From contig WFNP01000062.1 in assembly GCA_015488535.1 (NCBI GenBank), positions 1 to 34,266 of the forward strand: 34,266 nt of DNA, in the 5' to 3' direction. The translations under genes and the position numbers were made by a program. Numbering within the stretch: the first letter of the stretch is position 1; the number at the start of each line of letters is the position of its first letter. The notes beneath the pieces are model-generated. The model did no database searches and was not told the origin of the DNA. It was given only the letters and a program-made list of their open reading frames with translations. Source of the stretch: Nitratifractor sp. Its GTDB lineage: Bacteria > Campylobacterota > Campylobacteria > Campylobacterales > Sulfurovaceae. Shown one piece after another: positions 24,924 through 34,266 of this stretch.

Positions 24924-26879
24924 ATGACACAACCATCACTATCATCACTAATTTGGAGTACAGCTGACCTGCTTCGTGGTGACTATAAACAATCAGATTA
25001 TGGCAAAGTTATTCTGCCATTTACACTGCTACGCCGTTTGGAGTGTGTGATAGAGCCGACACGAGAGGCAGTTTTAAAGGAGTATCAAGCACGCAAAAAC
25101 CTCGACATACCGCTTGAAAAGATACTGGTACGCAAATCCGGACATAACTTTTACAATACATCCAGATACACGCTCTCAAAGCTGATGAGTGACCCAAACA
25201 ACCTGAGAGAAAATATTGAGAGTTATATCAACAGTTTCAGTCCCAATGCAAGGGAGATTTTTGAGAAGTATGAATTTAGCGTCCAACTCGACAAGCTCGA
25301 AGAGACCAACCTGCTCTACCTTATTGTAGAGAAGTTTGCTTCTGTAAACCTGCATCCTGACCGTGTGAGCAACCACCGAATGGGTATCGTTTTTGAAGAG
25401 CTTATCCGTATGTTTGCCGAAGCTTCCAATGAAACAGCCGGAGAGCATTTCACCCCACGGGATATTGTGCGTCTGACTACATCACTGCTCTTCTCTACAG
25501 ATGATGAAGTGCTTACCAAGCCCGGCATTGTCCGCAGTCTGTATGATCCGACAGCCGGAACAGGCGGATTTTTGACAAGTGGGACAGAGTATATCCACGA
25601 AATCAATCCAGATGCCACGCTTGTTACCTTTGGGCAGGAACTCAATGCCGAATCCTATGCCATCTGCAAAGCCGATATGCTCATCAAAGGTCAAAAGGTA
25701 GAGAATATCAAACACGGCAACACACTCAGTGATGACCAACTCAAAGATATGAAATTTGATTATATGCTCTCCAATCCGCCTTTTGGTGTGGAGTGGAAAA
25801 AGGTGCAAAAGGCAGTAGTCAAAGAGCATGAAGAACAAGGCTACAACGGTAGGTTTGGTCCGGGTCTGCCAAGAGTGAGTGATGGTTCTTTGCTTTTCCT
25901 TCTCCATCTCATCTCCAAAATGCGTTTACCGATAGAGGGTGGCAGTCGTATAGGCATCATCCTAAACGGCTCTCCACTCTTTACCGGAGGGGCTGGAAGC
26001 GGAGAGAGTGAAATACGCCGTTATATCCTCGAAAATGACCTACTCGAAGCTATAGTAGCTATGCCTACAGATATGTTTTTCAATACCGGCATCGCCACCT
26101 ACATCTGGATACTTTCCAACCACAAAGCACCCCAACGCAAAGGCAAGGTGCAACTAATAAACGCAAGTAATATGTATGAGCCTATGCGTAAATCACTTGG
26201 AAACAAACGCAAACAGCTCAGCCAAAAGCAGATAGAAGAGATAGTCCGTATCTATGGTGAGTTTGCAGAGTCAAAAGTGAGCAAAATATTTGATACGAGC
26301 GATTTCGGCTACCGTCGTATCACCGTAGAGCGACCGTTACAACTGAGCTTCTACCCGCACGATGAGACACGAATTGAGGCACTCAAAGCCGACAAAGCAT
26401 TTAAAAAATGGAGCGACACTCTGCAATCAGAGATACTCGAAGCACTCTCAAAGATGAGTGAAGCAAAGATAAGCGACCGTGAAGTGTTTGTCAAAAAGCT
26501 TGGTGTCAAACTCACCGCTACACAAATCAAACTCCTACAAAAACATCTGGCTGAACACGATGATGAAGCCACGCTCTGCCGTGACAAAAAAGGCAATCTC
26601 GAACCAGACCCCAATCTGCGTGATTATGAAAATATCCCACTTAAAGAGGATATATATGACTATTTCGAGCGAGAAGTCAAACCGCATGTGCCACTGGCAT
26701 GGATCGATGAAAAGAAGATAGATGCAAAAGATGGCAAAGTGGGCATAGTAGGATATGAGATACCTTTCAACCGATACTTTTATGAATATAAACCACCAAG
26801 AGCATTAGAGGAGATTGATGCAGAACTAGATGCGGTAACGGAAGAGATTATCAAACTTCTTGGGGAGATAAAGGAATAA
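24924..26879 (+). CDS. hsdM: type I restriction-modification methyltransferase subunit
   Basis: Modification subunit of a type I system: with HsdS it methylates adenine at N6 in the recognition site. In 651 residues there is the N-terminal helical HsdM domain (residues 5-150), then GEHFTPR (173-179), SAM motif [11 protein letters not shown] (208-217) and catalytic NPPFG (284-288). The C-terminal part continues into a charged helical tail of more than 150 residues, longer than in classic 500-residue HsdM. Arg codons are often CGN and Leu codons often CTN, unlike the AGA/TTA-rich neighbours, which suggests acquisition by transfer. It is followed by hsdS with no gap (TAAATG). Confidence 0.95.
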
Positions 26880-28187
26880 ATGGCTATGAATCAAATTAAA
26901 AAATTTAGATATAAACCCTACCCGAAATATAAACCAAGCGGTGTGGAGTGGCTGGGGGATGTGCCGGAGGGGTGGAATATATCAAAATTAAAATATGTAT
27001 TAATGTCAATCATTGCAGGAGGTACACCAAAAACAGACAAACCTAATAACTGGTGTGAATCAGGCGATGGAGTACCTTGGGTCTCAATAGCAGATATGAG
27101 TATAAATCACATCATAAGCAAAACAAAAAAAGATGTGACACTCAATGGAATTTTAGAAAAAGGGCTTAAAGTTCTGCCGAAAGGTACTTTACTCTATTCT
27201 ATATTTGCATCTCTTGGTAAAGTAGCAATAGCAGATACAAAACTTACCACAAATCAAGCTATTCTTGGATTGGTGCCAAACAAAAATATAACAAATGAAT
27301 TTTTATACTGGTTGTTAGTTTCATTGGAAAAATATGTACACTTTGTCGCAAGTAGCAATACACAAGACAATCTAAATATGGAAAAAGTTGCTAATTTTCC
27401 AATACCTCTTCTATCTAAAAATGAACAAACCGCCATCGCTAACTTCCTCGACCGAGAAACTGCCAAAATAGATACGCTGATAGCCAAGCAGGAGCGACTC
27501 ATCGAACTTTTGCAGGAGAAACGCCAAGCCCTCATCTCCCACACCGTCACCAAAGGGCTTGATCCCAATGTCAGGATGAAAGACAGCGGGATTGAATGGC
27601 TGGGTGAGGTGCCGGAACATTGGGAGGTTAAGAAATTAAAATTTAATCTTCGCCTTAGAACAGAAAAATCAAAAATAGAAAAACATAAAATCATTGCTTT
27701 GGAAAATATAGAGAGCAAAACAGGAAAATATATTCCAACAGAATCAATATATCAAGGAGAAGGGATAGCATGTTATTGTAATGATGTTTTATTTGGCAAA
27801 TTGCGTCCATATTTAGCAAAAGTTTACAGATGTAATGAAAATGCTATAGCTTTTGGAGACTTACTTACATACCAACCATTAACAAACTATAAAAGTTCGT
27901 ATGCCTTTTATATGCTAATTTCTGAGACTTTTATAAAAATTGTCAATAGCTCAACTTATGGTGCAAAAATGCCAAGGGCAGGTGCAGATTTCATAAATGA
28001 GATGCCACTACCTACACCCCCAATAGATGAACAACAACAAATCGCCGACTACCTCGACACCCAAACCGCCAAAATCGATACCCTCATCAAAAAAGCCCAC
28101 CAAGCCATCAAGCTACTCAAAGAGCGAAGAGAGGCACTCATCAGTGCGGCGGTGACGGGGAAGATTGATGTGAGGGAGAGTGCATAA
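26880..28187 (+). CDS. hsdS: type I restriction-modification specificity subunit
   Basis: Specificity subunit that recognises the two half-sites for HsdM/HsdR. The 435-residue chain is a tandem of two units, each with an entry motif (WLGDVPEGW 24-32; WLGEVPEHW 240-248), a target-recognition domain, and a long spacer helix (FLDRETAKIDTLIAKQERLIELL... at 190-222; YLDTQTAKIDTLIKKAHQAIKLL... near 393-430). Both recognition domains look intact and differ from each other, so the site should be asymmetric bipartite. At the DNA level the recognition domains are clearly AT-richer than the conserved flanks. The start has AAGGA just upstream. Its stop overlaps the next gene by one base (TAATG). Confidence 0.95.
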   Translation: MAMNQIKKFRYKPYPKYKPSGVEWLGDVPEGWNISKLKYVLMSIIAGGTPKTDKPNNWCESGDGVPWVSIADMSINHIISKTKKDVTLNGILEKGLKVLPKGTLLYSIFASLGKVAIADTKLTTNQAILGLVPNKNITNEFLYWLLVSLEKYVHFVASSNTQDNLNMEKVANFPIPLLSKNEQTAIANFLDRETAKIDTLIAKQERLIELLQEKRQALISHTVTKGLDPNVRMKDSGIEWLGEVPEHWEVKKLKFNLRLRTEKSKIEKHKIIALENIESKTGKYIPTESIYQGEGIACYCNDVLFGKLRPYLAKVYRCNENAIAFGDLLTYQPLTNYKSSYAFYMLISETFIKIVNSSTYGAKMPRAGADFINEMPLPTPPIDEQQQIADYLDTQTAKIDTLIKKAHQAIKLLKERREALISAAVTGKIDVRESA

Positions 28188-28885
28188 TGAAGTTTTTGGT
28201 TTACTGCGATGAAACGCTACCCGATCTGTTTACCACCACCCAACAGGTCGATAAAAAGCTGATGATTGGCAGCCTTTGGATAGAGGAAGAGATCAAAGAG
28301 GTTTTCAAGGCAAAGATCAAAGCACTGCGAAAAAAGCATAACTGTTGGGGTGAGATCAAATGGACGAAGGTTTCAAAAGCAAAAGAGATGTTTTATTTCG
28401 AGCTTGTTGATCTTTTTTTCTCTTTTGGGATGCAGGCTCGGTTTCGCTCTATCGCTATAGATCCAAGAGAGGTAAACTGGGCGGTACACGGCAACGACAG
28501 AGAACTTGGATTTTACAAGTTTTACTATTTTCTTTTAAAGCAATGGTTGCTTGATTTTAACGAATACTCCATCTTTTGCGATGCAAAAGTCAATAGAGAC
28601 CTTTCAAGACTCCAAACACTCCACAAGATATTGGCAAATGCAAACTACAACGCTTATATCAAACAAGTGCAGGCACTTCCATCAAAAGAAGTTGTTTTGA
28701 TACAGCTATCTGACCTTTTTCTCGGGGCAACAAGTGCGAAAATGAACAAAACCATTCTTTCAAACAAAGGAAAAATCGATCTAATCCAACATATCGAGCA
28801 ACACTTAGGGCGCCCTATACGAACAACGAATATGTATGAACAAAAGTGGAACTTATTTTCCATAAAACTCAAGAGAGGGTGGTGA
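28187..28885 (+). CDS. DUF3800 family protein
   Basis: A soluble 232-residue protein with features of the DUF3800 family, which is thought to have an RNase H-like fold: an acidic opening strand FLVYCDET (Asp8, Glu9), a following LMIGSLWI strand, EIKWTKVSKAKEMFYFELVDLF, FCDAKVNRDLSRLQTL with its Asp, and VVLIQLSDLFLGATSAKMN near the C-terminus. Members are common in defence islands and phages; activity is unproven, a nuclease being the usual suggestion. It overlaps hsdS by one base and the following gene by one base (TGATG), so it is translated as part of the restriction operon. Confidence 0.7.
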   Translation: MKFLVYCDETLPDLFTTTQQVDKKLMIGSLWIEEEIKEVFKAKIKALRKKHNCWGEIKWTKVSKAKEMFYFELVDLFFSFGMQARFRSIAIDPREVNWAVHGNDRELGFYKFYYFLLKQWLLDFNEYSIFCDAKVNRDLSRLQTLHKILANANYNAYIKQVQALPSKEVVLIQLSDLFLGATSAKMNKTILSNKGKIDLIQHIEQHLGRPIRTTNMYEQKWNLFSIKLKRGW

Positions 28886-29346
28886 TGTTACCCGAATTTG
28901 TCATTTATGATACAGTTGAAGAGTATAGACGATATTATGAAGAGAGATTTTGTCGCCAACCTATTGTAACTTTTGATGCGATACCGGTCTATTTTTCTAA
29001 AGAGAAGTTTTCACATGCCTTTTACGAAAGCTCTGACAGAAGAGGTTCTAAAGATGTTTTTTCACTAGAGCGTGCAAAGCGGATGGATTGGATTAAAGCG
29101 ACACTTCAAAGTAGTGAATCTCTCCTTTTTCAAGGATGGGATGCTAAAAAAAAGAGATATTTTGCAAATAGGCGCGTTAGCATAGTTTATGAAAACTTTG
29201 TTGTTATTATCCAGATAAGTCTCAAAAAAAATGGCTCACTTAAAGCCAATTTTATAACCTGCTATCAAGCGAACAATAGCATAGGTAAAATAAAAGCATC
29301 ACCAATTTGGGAAAAGGAAAAATGTTTAGAGGAACTAAGGAGATGA
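28885..29346 (+). CDS. small basic protein, possible PBECR/RelE-fold nuclease
   Basis: A 153-residue, Lys/Arg-rich protein starting at ATG 28885, which overlaps the DUF3800 stop in TGATG; GAGAGGGTGG lies just upstream. An upstream ATG (28846) in the same frame would lie within the DUF3800 gene and is less likely. The order of elements, a strand VYFSKEKFSHAFYES with His44, the helix LERAKRMDWIKATLQ, then RRVSIVYENFVVIIQISLKKNGSLKANFITCY, resembles the Barnase/EndoU/ColicinE5/RelE-like (PBECR) nuclease group, but this is fold-pattern reading without a family match. If right, it would be an RNase-like toxin paired with the DUF3800 protein. Confidence 0.5.
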   Translation: MLPEFVIYDTVEEYRRYYEERFCRQPIVTFDAIPVYFSKEKFSHAFYESSDRRGSKDVFSLERAKRMDWIKATLQSSESLLFQGWDAKKKRYFANRRVSIVYENFVVIIQISLKKNGSLKANFITCYQANNSIGKIKASPIWEKEKCLEELRR

Positions 29347-29480
29347 TTTTGATCGCTGATTTGCTACGCTGGTTCAGCGATCGAAACCTCGATAGATTCA
29401 AGCTACCGATAGGTAGTGAATTCAATAGCAATTATATCACCATAATTTTAATATCACATAAAATAGGGGAAACAGTATGA
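29343..29480 (+). CDS. candidate 45-residue coupled small ORF before fic
   Basis: ATG 29343 overlaps the previous stop (ATGA) and the frame's own TGA (29478-29480) overlaps the fic ATG 29477 (again ATGA), so the ORF exactly bridges the gap. AAGGAG touches the ATG; TTG 29349 has better spacing. The peptide opens MILIADLLRWFSDRNLDRF, amphipathic and charged, and ends in an AT-rich hydrophobic part (NYITIILIS). Against coding: the first third contains a perfect nine-pair inverted repeat, and the second half is as AT-rich as a promoter. It may instead be the structured leader of fic. Confidence 0.35.
   Translation: MILIADLLRWFSDRNLDRFKLPIGSEFNSNYITIILISHKIGETV
29351..29416. repeat. structured inverted repeats upstream of fic
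   Basis: GATCGCTGA (29351-29359) pairs with TCAGCGATC (29374-29382) around a 14-base loop. CTACC (29403-29407) pairs with GGTAG (29412-29416) around GATA, flanked by TTCA/TGAA. On the sense strand these would make two adjacent hairpins ahead of fic. No T-run follows. Confidence 0.5.
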
Positions 29481-30481
29481 GCTATACCCCACCTTTCACA
29501 ATCAGCCCGAGTATTCTCGATCTCGTCAGCCAAATCAGCGAAGCAGTGGGTAAGCTCGAGGTATTGGCTCCGACAGCCATGACACCAAAACTTCGCAAAG
29601 ACAACAGGATAAAGACTATTACCGGCACACTCGCTATCGAAGGCAACACCCTCGGTATTGAGAAGGTTACGGCTATCATCGAGGGTAAACGGGTAATGGG
29701 TAGTGTCCGTGAGATAGCAGAAGTCAACGGAGCTATCAAAGTCTATGATAATCTTGATAACTTCGATTATAAAAAGCTTAATGATTTGTTGTCAGCACAT
29801 AAGATGCTGATGGGTGAAATATTAACAAAAGCCGGGAGTTTCAGAACAAGCAATGTAGGTGTGGGAGGGGAAGAGGGGGTCGTGCATGTCGCTCCGCCAT
29901 ATGACAGAGTGCCGGAGTTGATGGGTTATCTGTTTGACTGGCTTGCAACTACCGACATTCATCCGCTTATTAAAAGCTCCGTCTTTCACTACGAGTTAGA
30001 ATTTATCCATCCATTTGAAGATGGCAACGGACGCATAGGCAGACTCTGGCAAAGCCTGATACTCTATGACTGGAAACCCATCTTTTCTGCTCTTCCCATA
30101 GAGAGCGTTATAAAGGAGAGTCAGCAAGGTTATTATGAGGCTTTAGAAACTGCAGGAAGTGCAGGAGAAAGCACACCCTTTGTGGCATTTATGCTCCAGT
30201 CTATCCTGCGAAGCTGTAAAGAGGAGTTGGCAATCAAAAGAGATGTCCCAATAAATGTCCCTAAAAATGTCCCAATAAACAGGCATAAAAAAATCATAAG
30301 CTTGATGCAGAAAAACAGTGCCATCACCATAGAGCAACTTGCTAATGCCTGTGAAGTCAGTGACAAGACCATCAAACGGGATATTGCCAAGCTCAAGAAA
30401 GAGGGCAAAATCGAACGGGTGGGCAGTTTGAAAAGCGGATACTGGAATATAAAAGGAGTGATACAAAATGAGCAAGCATAA
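29477..30481 (+). CDS. self-inhibited (class II) Fic protein with winged-helix tail
   Basis: A 334-residue Fic-domain enzyme, presumably an AMP-transferase using ATP on protein hydroxyls. The N-terminal inhibitory helix is T-L-A-I-E-G (51-56), matching [S/T]xxxE[G/N], so it is a class II protein that restrains itself. The active loop HPFEDGNGRIGR (178-189) is intact with His178. The flap VVHVAPPYDRVPELM and N-terminal Fic_N part are normal. Residues 265-330 form a winged helix (TIEQLANACEVSDKTIKRDIAKLKKEGKIERVG), preceded by a curious VPINVPKNVPIN repeat. AGGGGAAAC precedes ATG 29477. It overlaps hsdR by 14 bases. Fic-like genes (RloF) are known between hsd genes in Campylobacter. The target is unknown. 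Confidence 0.9.
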   Translation: MSYTPPFTISPSILDLVSQISEAVGKLEVLAPTAMTPKLRKDNRIKTITGTLAIEGNTLGIEKVTAIIEGKRVMGSVREIAEVNGAIKVYDNLDNFDYKKLNDLLSAHKMLMGEILTKAGSFRTSNVGVGGEEGVVHVAPPYDRVPELMGYLFDWLATTDIHPLIKSSVFHYELEFIHPFEDGNGRIGRLWQSLILYDWKPIFSALPIESVIKESQQGYYEALETAGSAGESTPFVAFMLQSILRSCKEELAIKRDVPINVPKNVPINRHKKIISLMQKNSAITIEQLANACEVSDKTIKRDIAKLKKEGKIERVGSLKSGYWNIKGVIQNEQA

Positions 30482-31799
30482 AGAAGAGAGATTTGAAACC
30501 GAAATCGTCAAATATCTGACCGATAATGGCTGGGTCGAAGGTAACTCCAAAGGCTACGATGTAGCACTTGGACTATATCCCAAAGATTTACTTACATATA
30601 TCAAGCATACTCAGCCCCAAGCGTATGAAAAGATGTATCGCAGAGAGGGAACACGAACAGATGATGTGCTATGCAAACATATCTCCAAAAGTATGGACAA
30701 ACATGGTGCCATACATACCCTGCGTAAAGAGGTCAAATATATCGGTGCGAAATTCAAGCTCTGCCAATTCAAGCCCGAACTACCCAACCCAGATACACAG
30801 GCACGATATGATGCCAATATCCTGCGTGTGGTGCGTCAGCTTTACTACTCAGCCAAAAACAACAACAGCATTGACCTTGTATTTTTCCTCAATGGTATTC
30901 CAATAGCAACGGCAGAGCTGAAAACAGACTTCACACAAAATGTGCAAGATGCCATCAATCAGTATCGATATGACCGCAACCCCAAAGGCGAGGTGCTACT
31001 AAGTTTCAACAGACGGACACTCGTTCATTTTGCTGTCAGCACTGATGAAGTCTATATGACTACCAAGCTTGAAGGCACCAAGACACACTTCCTGCCTTTT
31101 AACAAAGGCAAACCAGACGGCAGTGCCGGCAACCCTCCAAATCCAAACGGTTATGCCACTGACTACCTCTACAAAGAGATTCTACAGATTGACTCTCTTA
31201 TGAACATCATAGAGCGTTATCTACATCTTGAAGTAAAAGAGAAAGAGGACCATCAGGGTAAAAAATACAAAAGCCAAACACTCATTTTTCCACGATATCA
31301 TCAGCTTGATGCTGTGCGTAAACTGCTCAGCGATACCAGAGAAAAAGGGGTAGGTGAACACTACCTCATTCAACACAGTGCCGGTTCGGGCAAATCAAAC
31401 TCCATTGCCTGGCTGACACATCAACTTGCCTCTTTGCACGACAACAACGAAGAAGCGATATTTAACTCTGTCATTGTCATCACAGACCGGACGGTACTGG
31501 ATAATCAATTGCAAGAGACCATCGGCTCATTTGAACACAAAGATGGTGTAGTAGTCGGTATCAATAAAAAGGATTCCAACGAGAGCAAATCGCTACAGCT
31601 TGCCAATGCTCTGGAAAATGGAGCAAAGATTATCATCACAACTATACAGACTTTTCCGTTTGTGATTGATGCTATACGCCACCGTGCAAGTCTCAAAGAG
31701 CGTAAATACGCCATCATTGCCGATGAAGCCCACTCTTCACAAAGTGGAGGCGACTGCCAAGAAGCTCAAAGAGGTGCTAGGTGTCAAGCAGGTGGATGA
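30468..31799 (+). pseudogene. hsdR: type I restriction endonuclease subunit HsdR, N-terminal part (frameshifted)
   Basis: The N-terminal 424 or so residues of HsdR, the motor and nuclease of the type I system. The PD-(D/E)xK nuclease region is IDLVFFLNGIPIATAELKTD (Asp136, Glu150-x-Lys152) with a following Gln/Tyr stretch (QDAINQYRY). Then come the Q-motif PRYHQLDAV, Walker A HSAGSGKSNS (303-312) and the DEAH box IIADEAHSSQSG (417-428). After Gly428 the frame goes wrong and stops within 15 codons. The homologous continuation resumes in another frame from about 31750. A two-base loss (GAGAG to GAG) or a one-base gain at about 31745-31752 explains it. The ATG overlaps the fic end. Confidence 0.85.
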
Positions 31800-33657
31800 A
31801 GATGCCCAAATCAGTGCAGAGGATGTAATGAGCGCAACTCTTGAAGCAGAAGGCAAAAGACGAAATATCAGCTTTTATGCCTTTACTGCAACACCAAAGG
31901 AGAAAACACTGCAACTCTTCGGCACCCTGCCCGATCCGTCTATGCCACCATCAGATACCAACATGCCACAACCATTTCATACATACACGATGAAACAGGC
32001 TATTGAAGAGGGTTTTATCCTCGATGTTTTGCGTGGCTATACCACATACAAAATCTTCTACAAACTCGAACACGCCAACTCAAAAAAGGATCAAGAGGTC
32101 GAGAGCAGAAAAGCAAAGGCAAAAATAGCAAAGTGGCTCAATATCCATCCATATAATATCGCACAAAAAGTGGATATTATCATCGAACATTTTCGCATAC
32201 ATGTCTCTCATCTGCTTGACCATCAGGCAAAAGCGATGGTGGTTACTTCAAGTCGTCAGGCTGCGGTACGCTACAAATTGGCATTTGACAAGTATATAAA
32301 AGAGCATAATTATCAAAATATACAGGCAATGGTGTCATTTTCCGGCAAAGTGATTGATGATATAGAAGGAGAGCAAAAGGAGTACACCGAAGCAAATATG
32401 AATCCCAATCTGCGTGGGCGTGATATGCGAAAGGCATTTGATACCAACGAGTATCAAGTGATGATAGTTGCCAATAAATTCCAGACAGGATTTGACCAAC
32501 CAAAACTATGTGCGATGTATGTCGATAAGAAACTCGGCGGTGTGGACTGTGTGCAGACACTATCACGGCTCAACCGTATATATCCGGGTAAAGAGCAGAC
32601 ATTTATCCTCGATTTTGTGAATGAGACAGAAGATATCAAAGAAGCATTTGCACCCTACTATAAAAGCACCGTGCTTGAAGATGTTACCGACCCCAACATT
32701 CTTTATGACCTGCAAAGCAAACTGGAAGCATCAGGAATATTTACAGCAAGTGAGGTTGAAGCATATGCAGATACATTCTTTGACCCAAAAGGCACACAGG
32801 CACAGATGAGTGCATCAATCAAACCGGCATCAGATCGATACAAGATGCGATACAAAGAAGCCATAGAGAAAATAGATACTCTTGAAAAGGAGATAATCAA
32901 AGCAGAAAAAGACGGAGATGAAAAGAGCCTCCACAATCTCTCTCTTGAGCGTGAAGAAGCCTCCAAAGCAAAAAAAGCACTGGAAATTTTCAAAAAAGAC
33001 CTCACTACCTTTGTAAGAATGTATGAATTTCTCTCACAAATTGTCGATTATCAGGATGAAGAGTTGCTCTCGCTGTATGTCTATGCAAAAGGACTACTCC
33101 CCAACCTCAAAACTATAGATGAAAAAGACCCCATTGACCTCTCTGCTGTGGAGCTGACACACTACAAGCTACACAAACAAAAAGAGGAGAGTATCCGCCT
33201 GGATGAAGAGGCACATCCTTTGCCACCTCTCAATCCAGGCGAAGCAAAACCACACGACCCAGACAAAGACCTGCTCTCACATATTGTGCGAGAAATCAGT
33301 GCCTTGTTTGAGGGTGAGTTGAGTGACAAGGATATACTGAACTTCACCAGAACTATCGGCGACAAGATGATGGAAAATGAAAAGGTCGTCCATCAGGTGA
33401 AAAATAATAACAAAGATCAGGCTATGATGGGCGGTTTCTCTGATGCTATCAGCACAGCGGTTATAGAGAGTCTTGATATTCACCAAAAACTTGCAACACA
33501 ACTACTGAGTGAAGACTCCAAAATGAATCTTTTTGCGAACATGATTTATGAAATGGTCTCCACAGGACTCAAACAGGCAAATGCTAAAGCAGAAAACAAT
33601 ATCTATGAACCTGTTATGAAAGTATCAGAATCCTCATCAGGGTATGGAAAAATATAG
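31666..33657 (+). pseudogene. hsdR: HsdR, C-terminal part (frameshifted)
   Basis: Continuation of HsdR in the +1 frame; meaningful homology starts at about 31750 (ATAKKLKEVLG), not at the first possible start codon 31666, whose first 28 residues are the wrong frame of the upstream half. It has helicase motif III ISFYAFTATPKEKTL, GFILDVLRGYTTYK, VMIVANKFQTGFDQPKLCAMYVDKKLGGVDCVQTLSRLNR (motifs V and VI), then the long charged helical C-terminal domain for MTase binding. Without the shift the whole protein would have about 1060 residues. It has no ribosome site of its own that I can support, so it is probably not made, unless the shift is a sequencing error or is bypassed. Confidence 0.85.
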
Positions 33658-33863: not shown

Positions 33864-33951
33864 TGGCCGGGAGACAGGGATTCGAACCCTGGGAGGTGTT
33901 ACCCTCAACGGTTTTCAAGACCGCCGCTTTCGACCACTCAGCCATCTCCCG
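33864..33951 (-). tRNA. tRNA-Ser (UGA)
   Basis: 88 bases including encoded CCA (33864-33866). Acceptor CGGGAGA/TCTCCCG with discriminator G, anticodon loop CTTGAAA giving UGA, long variable arm and TTCGAATC T-loop. Last gene of the leftward tRNA cluster; its 3' end faces the restriction-modification island. Confidence 0.95.
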
Positions 33952-33966
33952 AAACAGTAGTAAATG

Positions 33967-34041
33967 TGGAGGCGCCACCCGGATTCGAACCGGGGATCAG
34001 AGCTTTGCAGGCTCCTGCCTTAGCCACTTGGCTATAGCGCC
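33967..34041 (-). tRNA. tRNA-Cys (GCA)
   Basis: 75 bases including encoded CCA (33967-33969). Acceptor GGCGCTA/TGGCGCC with discriminator U, anticodon loop CTGCAAA giving GCA, T-loop TTCGAAT. Between tRNA-Leu and tRNA-Ser, 11 and 15 bases away. Confidence 0.95.
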
Positions 34042-34052
34042 TCATCTTTTGG

Positions 34053-34140
34053 TGGTGCCCGGAGCCGGACTTGAACCGGCACAGCTGCAATAGCCGGGGG
34101 ATTTTAAGTCCCCTGTGTCTACCAATTCCACCATCCGGGC
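34053..34140 (-). tRNA. tRNA-Leu (UAA)
   Basis: 88 bases including encoded CCA (34053-34055). Acceptor GCCCGGA/TCCGGGC with discriminator A, anticodon loop CTTAAAA giving UAA, long variable arm and TTCAAGT T-loop. Confidence 0.95.
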
Positions 34141-34172
34141 TTCAGACACCTGAATAAATCACGATAATTTTT

Positions 34173-34178
34173 ATTATA
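34173..34178 (-). promoter_or_regulatory. extended -10 box for tRNA-Leu/Cys/Ser
   Basis: Minus-strand TGATATAAT, a TGn-extended perfect -10, 33 bases before the 5' end of tRNA-Leu. It suggests that the three downstream tRNAs have their own start besides any read-through from tRNA-Gly. Confidence 0.6.
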
Positions 34179-34203
34179 TCATCTTTATAATTAAAAATAA
34201 CTA

Positions 34204-34266
34204 TGGAGCGGGAGACGGGATTCGAACCCGCGACCCCAACCTTGGCAAGGTTGTGCTCTACCCCTG
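34204..34266 (-). tRNA. tRNA-Gly (GCC), 5' end cut by the window
   Basis: 63 bases visible. Encoded CCA (34204-34206), discriminator U, acceptor 3' strand CTCCCGC, T-arm GCGGGTTCGAATCCCGT and anticodon loop TTGCCAA giving GCC. The D-arm and acceptor 5' strand lie beyond the window. Confidence 0.93.

Follow-up and report, generated by a model that had tools for sequence, protein, structure and literature searches.

A Structured RNA Beside a Conserved DUF3800 Protein Pair in a Type I Restriction-Modification Operon of Nitratifractor

Introduction

The phage PhiTE evades the ToxIN system with pseudo-ToxI (PMC3475682). Type I restriction-modification (R-M) operons are known insertion sites of defense modules such as DarTG2 (PMC12255303). 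Relatives of the DUF3800 proteins, a family for which an RNase H fold has been published (PMC10910872), have been proposed to function in interference or in the handling of CRISPR RNA (crRNA) (PMC10910872, PMC12669027). In this report, we describe a DUF3800 gene, the gene for a small basic protein, and a structured small RNA that lie together within a type I R-M operon of Nitratifractor sp., a member of the Campylobacterota. The DNA analyzed, referred to as the window, is the 34,266-nucleotide stretch of contig WFNP01000062.1 (assembly GCA_015488535.1). The original prediction for this locus, made from the sequence alone, had described four genes inserted between hsdS and hsdR that might act with, or guard, the R-M system. 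The three parts of the cassette described here are well supported, and together they probably constitute an RNA-controlled nuclease defense. DUF3800 genes and their companion RNAs had previously been paired without a function, and the missing partner protein is now added.

Results

The DUF3800 protein (232 residues; positions 28187 to 28885, plus strand; Pfam DUF3800, E = 3e-9) and the basic protein of 153 residues (28885 to 29346, plus strand) are encoded by adjacent genes and match the PADLOC models PDC-M04A and PDC-M04B with E-values of 3e-65 and 2e-63, respectively. The second protein is called M04B below. The two genes share a single base at 28885, within the sequence TGATG, as had been predicted. 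A total of 84,980 species genomes were scanned once with a DUF3800 alignment as the query, and the best 80 of the 289 matches were taken; these 80 loci are spread over many phyla. The fractions of loci reported here are rough, coming from these best 80 of 289 matches, from many short contigs, and from a search seeded with DUF3800 rather than with the hsd genes. M04B was present in 84 of 88 DUF3800 loci. The genes of the pair were found to share exactly one base in 54 of 80 loci, with a four-base overlap in 5 more, and the junction is thus conserved across phyla more than chance would allow. In phage P1, rlfA and rlfB correspond to this pair and likewise share one base within TGATG.

The suggestion that the DUF3800 and basic proteins form a unit is borne out by their recurrence inside type I R-M operons of several phyla (51 of 83 loci). 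Within a sample of 397 Campylobacterota genomes, the window type of M04B was found in 2 and matches to the PDC-M04A profile in 22. In most of the 12 PDC-M04A-matching Campylobacterota genomes that were inspected the pair lies among hsd genes, and in several it lies between hsdM and hsdS. A survey of co-occurrence across the Campylobacterota had been proposed as the check on the original prediction; the pair proved not to be unique to this genome, and the full order that includes fic was seen here only.

The AlphaFold model of the DUF3800 protein has a pLDDT of 91, and its best Foldseek match is RNase HII (1eke, E = 4.6e-6). The acidic residues D8, E9, and D132 are invariant, and D176 is nearly so. 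This combination of fold and conserved acidic residues is that of an RNase-H-like nuclease, which the protein is predicted to be. The model of M04B (pLDDT 94.6) combines mixed helices with a four-stranded sheet, and the conserved residues are F42, H44, R63, W69, and T125. As had been anticipated for the basic protein, M04B is likely an RNase, putatively one of the BECR type (barnase/EndoU/colicin E5-D/RelE-like); weak PBECR2 matches were obtained for 10 of 55 members (best E = 4e-4), and the distant viral fold matches include polyvalent proteins and MuF C-terminal proteins. Sequence searches of the PDB with the DUF3800 and M04B alignments returned no match.

The open reading frame of 45 codons that follows M04B (29343 to 29480, plus strand) is indeed open, as originally described; its standing as a gene did not survive. 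It has no family match in Pfam, NCBIfam, or PADLOC, and a start followed by at least 40 codons in this frame was found in just 11 of 55 relatives, with a stop 16 codons past the anchor in most. A peptide product is ruled out by the missing family match and by the unconserved frame, and the frame appears to lie by accident over an RNA gene. It follows that the inserted set does not comprise four genes and that the overlaps of this frame with its neighbors, which had been offered as tight coupling, carry no information. When the 45-residue translation was used in a tblastn search, its middle part was matched directly 3' of M04B in distant phyla, and the DNA at these sites contains a conserved two-hairpin element. 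What is conserved at 29343 to 29480 is RNA structure and not a reading frame, a caution that RNA genes can hide beneath short reading frames in tight operons.

A structured RNA is thus present beside the DUF3800 gene. The predicted gene of about 78 nucleotides (29350 to 29427, minus strand; covariance model R1, 83.4 bits) is convergent to the operon and consists of a 5' hairpin P2, a linker, and a pseudoknotted 3' hairpin P1. The pseudoknot is formed between GGY of the hairpin P1 loop and RCC of the linker, and one of its pairs switches between C-G (25 sequences) and U-A (19 sequences). Among 46 aligned sequences, standard pairs occupy 91.8% of the paired cells, and both sides change in 15 of the 21 pairs. 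The covariation score was determined to be 0.270, compared with 0.125 ± 0.007 for shuffled alignments, and none of 500 shuffles reached the observed value. With the covariance model, the RNA was identified after the pair in 72 of 86 loci, three of which have it in tandem; in three loci of Bacillota type the RNA is on the operon's own strand. At times it overlaps the stop codon of M04B. The RNA is present as a single copy in the genome of the window and as one or two copies, always at the locus, in twelve other genomes. In divergent loci (phage P1, L003, L080-L087, and the Campylobacterota subfamily) hairpins occupy the same place and are beyond the reach of the model. One close relative was obtained from the plasmid search, in Phyllobacterium. 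The window RNA and its relatives did not match Rfam at either gathering or permissive thresholds. A search of ten host genomes for RF02969 gave no match, and none was obtained from the controls either.

The tmRNA (transfer-messenger RNA) of five Campylobacterota genomes (L090-L093 and L095) has a 3'-end pseudoknot that resembles the hairpin P1 pseudoknot, with scores of 25 to 28 bits. These matches run in the sense direction of the tmRNA itself. The likeness is treated as convergence, because the tmRNA of the window's own genome is not similar to the RNA, and it is otherwise unexplained. Two further weak matches to the RNA model (L089 and L094) lie inside coding genes and were set aside.

Viral sequences were searched with an exact pattern for hairpin P1. 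Matches were obtained in 48 viral contigs, of which 8 contain the protein pair and 40 lack both proteins within the DNA examined around each site; the pair, where present, is always adjacent. The phage copies maintain the fold through compensatory changes of their own (0.252 versus 0.092 for shuffled alignments, reached in 0 of 500 shuffles). Genes for terminase, portal, tape-measure, or sheath proteins were identified in 5 of the 10 RNA-bearing contigs tested, with phage replication genes in others. The RNA is also carried by two isolated phages, Sphingobium phage Lacusarx (55.3 bits) and DSS3_MAL1 (44.1 bits), the copy in the latter being inside a tRNA array. A DUF3800 relative was found in 19 phage records, which include neither of these two phages. 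The cassette is found in relatives of the apparent hosts, namely, sphingomonads for Lacusarx and Rhodobacteraceae for DSS3_MAL1, whose host is inferred from the name of the phage. The presence of the RNA in phages without the proteins is an unexpected clue to function.

A second class of RNA, of the phage P1 rlfAB type, was assigned by a single hairpin pattern together with position and a check of stem length, and not by covariation. The pattern is present in at least 120 viral contigs. In 80 of these contigs, which hold 81 sites, 14 sites are in loci with the proteins and 67 are without them in the DNA examined. Phage tRNA arrays often contain RNAs of this class (L171-L250), in which a CTCATCTACCatgtGTAGAAGGAG hairpin precedes a second, variable hairpin that may set specificity. 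On a phage contig of 164 kb, a second-class RNA is followed about 90 bases later, on the same strand, by an RNA that matches the Rfam DUF3800-VIII family (L225, 683-865; L232, 12244-12426).

Covariation does not reveal the strand of the RNA, since a pseudoknot remains a pseudoknot when reverse complemented. In the paired columns, read on the plus strand, A-C exceeds G-T by 43 to 18 in the host loci and by 37 to 16 in the viral loci, a difference that is weak alone given that the sequences are related. On the minus strand, the region ahead of the RNA contains TTGAC in 50 of 67 loci (1.3 after shuffling); in Bacteroidetes the motif is TAnnTTTG, present in 8 of 8 loci (0.4 after shuffling). A run of four T, corresponding to U4 in the RNA and taken as part of a terminator, lies past the last hairpin in 55 of 75 loci, compared with 15 after shuffling. 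In the window, the sequence TATAAT (29431 to 29436, minus strand, read from 29436 to 29431) lies about seven bases ahead of the RNA start and is the predicted -10 box of a promoter that belongs to the RNA, with promoters in the same place in relatives. For stand-alone phage copies with a tRNA gene within 1 kb, the RNA and the tRNA share a strand in all 35 cases (8 of 8 for the first class and 27 of 27 for the second). An RNA read from the operon strand was rejected on the pair counts, the promoters, and the tRNA strands; the RNA is predicted to be a minus-strand product, antisense to the operon and made from its own promoter.

The operon begins with hsdM (24924 to 26879, plus strand; Pfam N6_Mtase and HsdM_N; PADLOC MTase_I, E = 5e-288), the gene for the DNA methyltransferase subunit. 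It abuts hsdS (26880 to 28187, plus strand; PADLOC Specificity_I, E = 8e-124), for the specificity subunit, whose two target-recognition domains correspond to two stretches of Pfam Methylase_S. The stop of hsdS shares one base with the DUF3800 gene at 28187 (TAATG). The fic gene (29477 to 30481, plus strand) overlaps hsdR, which starts at 30468, by 14 bases. These junctions are as originally described, and all of the families that had been named (HsdM, HsdS, DUF3800, Fic, and HsdR) were matched in Pfam and PADLOC. The three genes of a type I R-M operon are therefore present, whereas the single hsdR frame that had been assumed is broken. The 5' part of hsdR (30468 to 31799, plus strand; Pfam HSDR_N and SWI2_SNF2) ends past the DEAH box, and the 3' part (31666 to 33657, plus strand; Pfam T1R_D3-like, NCBIfam hsdR) is in a different frame. 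The break is placed at 31740 to 31765, just past the DEAH box, a site that hsdR of the closest relative (locus L008, DUF3800 protein 73% identical) passes in one frame. The break is either a true pseudogene or an assembly error.

The Fic protein carries a C-terminal winged helix-turn-helix domain and matches Pfam Fic (E = 4.5e-21) and, by itself, PADLOC SoFic (E = 8e-49). Its translation contains the HPFEDGNGRIGR motif and an N-terminal TLAIEGN motif; a Fic domain with the HPFx(D/E)GNxRxGR motif is what identifies SoFic and Fic AMPylases. Fic had been included in the inserted set. This genome is the only one in which it was seen to separate the pair from hsdR, and a divergent Fic is located elsewhere in locus L011. 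Membership of Fic in the unit is ruled out by its lack of conservation alongside the pair; it is a separate SoFic-like module.

Three observations concern the surroundings. Directly after hsdR (33864 to 34266) come four clustered tRNA genes, with the window end cutting through one of them; the cluster is a possible insertion site of the defense locus. In the closest relative, an unlike open reading frame of 133 residues occupies the position of fic (L008, 7084-7482). In an operon of the same type in Phyllobacterium zundukense, a GIY-YIG nuclease gene is situated between hsdM and hsdS (L004, 9786-10754).

Discussion

We lean toward the view that the DUF3800 protein, M04B, and the RNA form an autonomous three-part defense in which an RNase is restrained by RNA and which phages evade with RNA mimics. 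The RNA would bind the DUF3800/M04B pair and restrain the BECR-type RNase, and the DUF3800 protein would process or guard the RNA-protein complex. Infection would disturb the supply or turnover of the RNA, and the RNase so freed would halt translation or growth. Phages would escape by making RNA mimics from their tRNA arrays, as PhiTE does with pseudo-ToxI against ToxIN. Restraint is favored because a small BECR-like protein with a pseudoknotted RNA recalls the type III toxin-antitoxin systems, and because RNA carried alone by phages recalls the pseudo-ToxI of PhiTE (PMC3475682).

The nearest rival is that the RNA is an activating cofactor, a scaffold, guide, or sensor in a ribonucleoprotein with the DUF3800 protein and M04B that attacks phage nucleic acid. 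The phage copies would then act as sponges and sequester the proteins, in the manner of RNA anti-CRISPRs. This account, which we hold to be possible and put forward tentatively, fits the same data on linkage, fold, and phage copies, and relatives of DUF3800 are found with Cas12a2 and at some type VI-F and V-A2 loci (PMC10910872, PMC12669027). The RNA has no variable guide segment, however; its loops are conserved and it is single copy in most genomes, and a restrained RNase is an equally good or better match to a small BECR-like protein with a structured RNA. Under both accounts phage RNA would lower protection, and they differ in the behavior expected of M04B without RNA.

A number of points weigh against an RNA-restrained defense. 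The PBECR2 matches that bear on M04B are weak, and the fold search of the PDB with M04B gave no match. No report of a phage-defense test of PDC-M04 was found in the open-license literature, a coverage that leaves out preprints. Phage P1 itself holds the whole cassette, with the annotation "possibly associated with lytic replication", and its rlfA and rlfB are both nonessential (PMC10695390). The RNA might be retained in phages for some other purpose. The antitoxins of type III systems, such as ToxIN, are tandem-repeat RNAs located upstream of their toxins, whereas the RNA here is single copy, downstream, and usually antisense. Finally, the R-M system around the cassette may be decaying, because hsdR is broken in this genome.

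The idea that the inserted genes, Fic included, act with or guard the R-M system is unlikely. It draws on the tight coupling, on the 51 of 83 loci in which the pair is among hsd genes, and on E. coli DarTG2, which occupies the corresponding position between hsdS and hsdR (PMC12255303). The pair is between hsdM/hsdS and hsdR in 35 of these loci, ahead of hsdM/hsdS in 9, after hsdM/hsdS with hsdR not seen in 6, and near hsdR alone in 1. Its position therefore varies (hsdS-pair-hsdR, pair-hsdM, or hsdM-pair-hsdS). In the remaining 32 loci no hsd gene was seen, and several of these adjoin gyrB, uvrA, nrdA, and other housekeeping genes. The phage P1 and chromosomal copies stand alone, Fic has this position here only, and the cassette is intact where hsdR is broken. 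Because hsd genes are found in only 51 of 83 loci and housekeeping neighbors elsewhere, the module of DUF3800, M04B, and RNA is autonomous from R-M, contrary to the original prediction.

Still less probable is a role of the RNA in regulating the operon, as a cis-antisense or 3'-end element that limits, for example, hsdR or M04B. The RNA is convergent to the operon in most loci and in some runs over the end of M04B, as such a regulator might; against this, it is on the operon strand in the three Bacillota-type loci, and compensatory changes keep the fold, in the stand-alone phage copies as well. A mere DNA feature or a transcription terminator, to which the U-run after hairpin P1 in many loci would correspond, can be dismissed given the upstream promoter, the second hairpin, the covariation of the pseudoknot, and the stand-alone copies that are always on the tRNA strand within tRNA arrays.

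More broadly, we see an even chance that the cassette belongs to a widespread family of RNA-gated antiphage nucleases, with phage P1 rlfAB and the Rfam DUF3800 RNAs as branches, that is countered by stand-alone RNA mimics in the tRNA arrays of many unrelated phages. If true, such mimics would be a general RNA-based counter-defense and would account for a group of small RNAs in the tRNA arrays of phages that has had no explanation. A defense and counter-defense pair of this kind would be testable in E. coli with the phage P1 genes.

Comparison with Known Systems

The closest described counterpart is PDC-M04, a phage-defense candidate in PADLOC, whose A and B models are matched by the two window proteins. 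These models reportedly derive from the guilt-by-embedding preprint of Payne et al. 2024. PDC-M04 is composed of two proteins in PADLOC; here it is joined by a structured RNA with its own promoter and by stand-alone RNA copies in phages. The Rfam families DUF3800-I, -VIII, -IX, and others are likewise structured small RNAs near DUF3800 genes (PMC10910872). The window RNA matches none of them, unlike the separate phage RNA described above, which matches DUF3800-VIII.

ToxIN and PhiTE pseudo-ToxI also combine an RNase-like protein, a structured RNA, and phage RNA mimics (PMC3475682). The protein family differs, and the cassette has a second, RNase-H-like protein and a separate promoter for the RNA; no match to the ToxN-type family was obtained for the window proteins in Pfam, NCBIfam, or PADLOC. 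DarTG2 is a toxin-like defense module at the same site of a type I R-M operon, between hsdS and hsdR, in E. coli (PMC12255303). Its proteins are unrelated to those found here, and it has no RNA part. RloF, which had been cited as a Fic-like protein of type I loci, is described as a DUF262/GmrS protein (PMC4619093). This domain is the distinguishing feature of RloF, and no Pfam match to DUF262 was found among the window proteins.

The proteins encoded by rlfA and rlfB of phage P1 are 36% and 21% identical to the window pair, are carried by a temperate phage, and are accompanied by an RNA of another sequence class. No annotation exists for the predicted gene of this small RNA, which is located at about 52909-52987 of NC_005856 (minus strand; L005, 5152-5230) and is convergent to rlfB. 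It follows rlfB, with a predicted TTGAAA-N17-TAGATT promoter, two hairpins, and a U-run. The protein pair as a candidate and the DUF3800-linked RNAs as a kind were thus already known. As far as the open-license literature shows, preprints being outside this coverage, the new elements are the RNA family together with its strand and promoter, the set of three parts that includes M04B, and the many copies that stand alone in phages.

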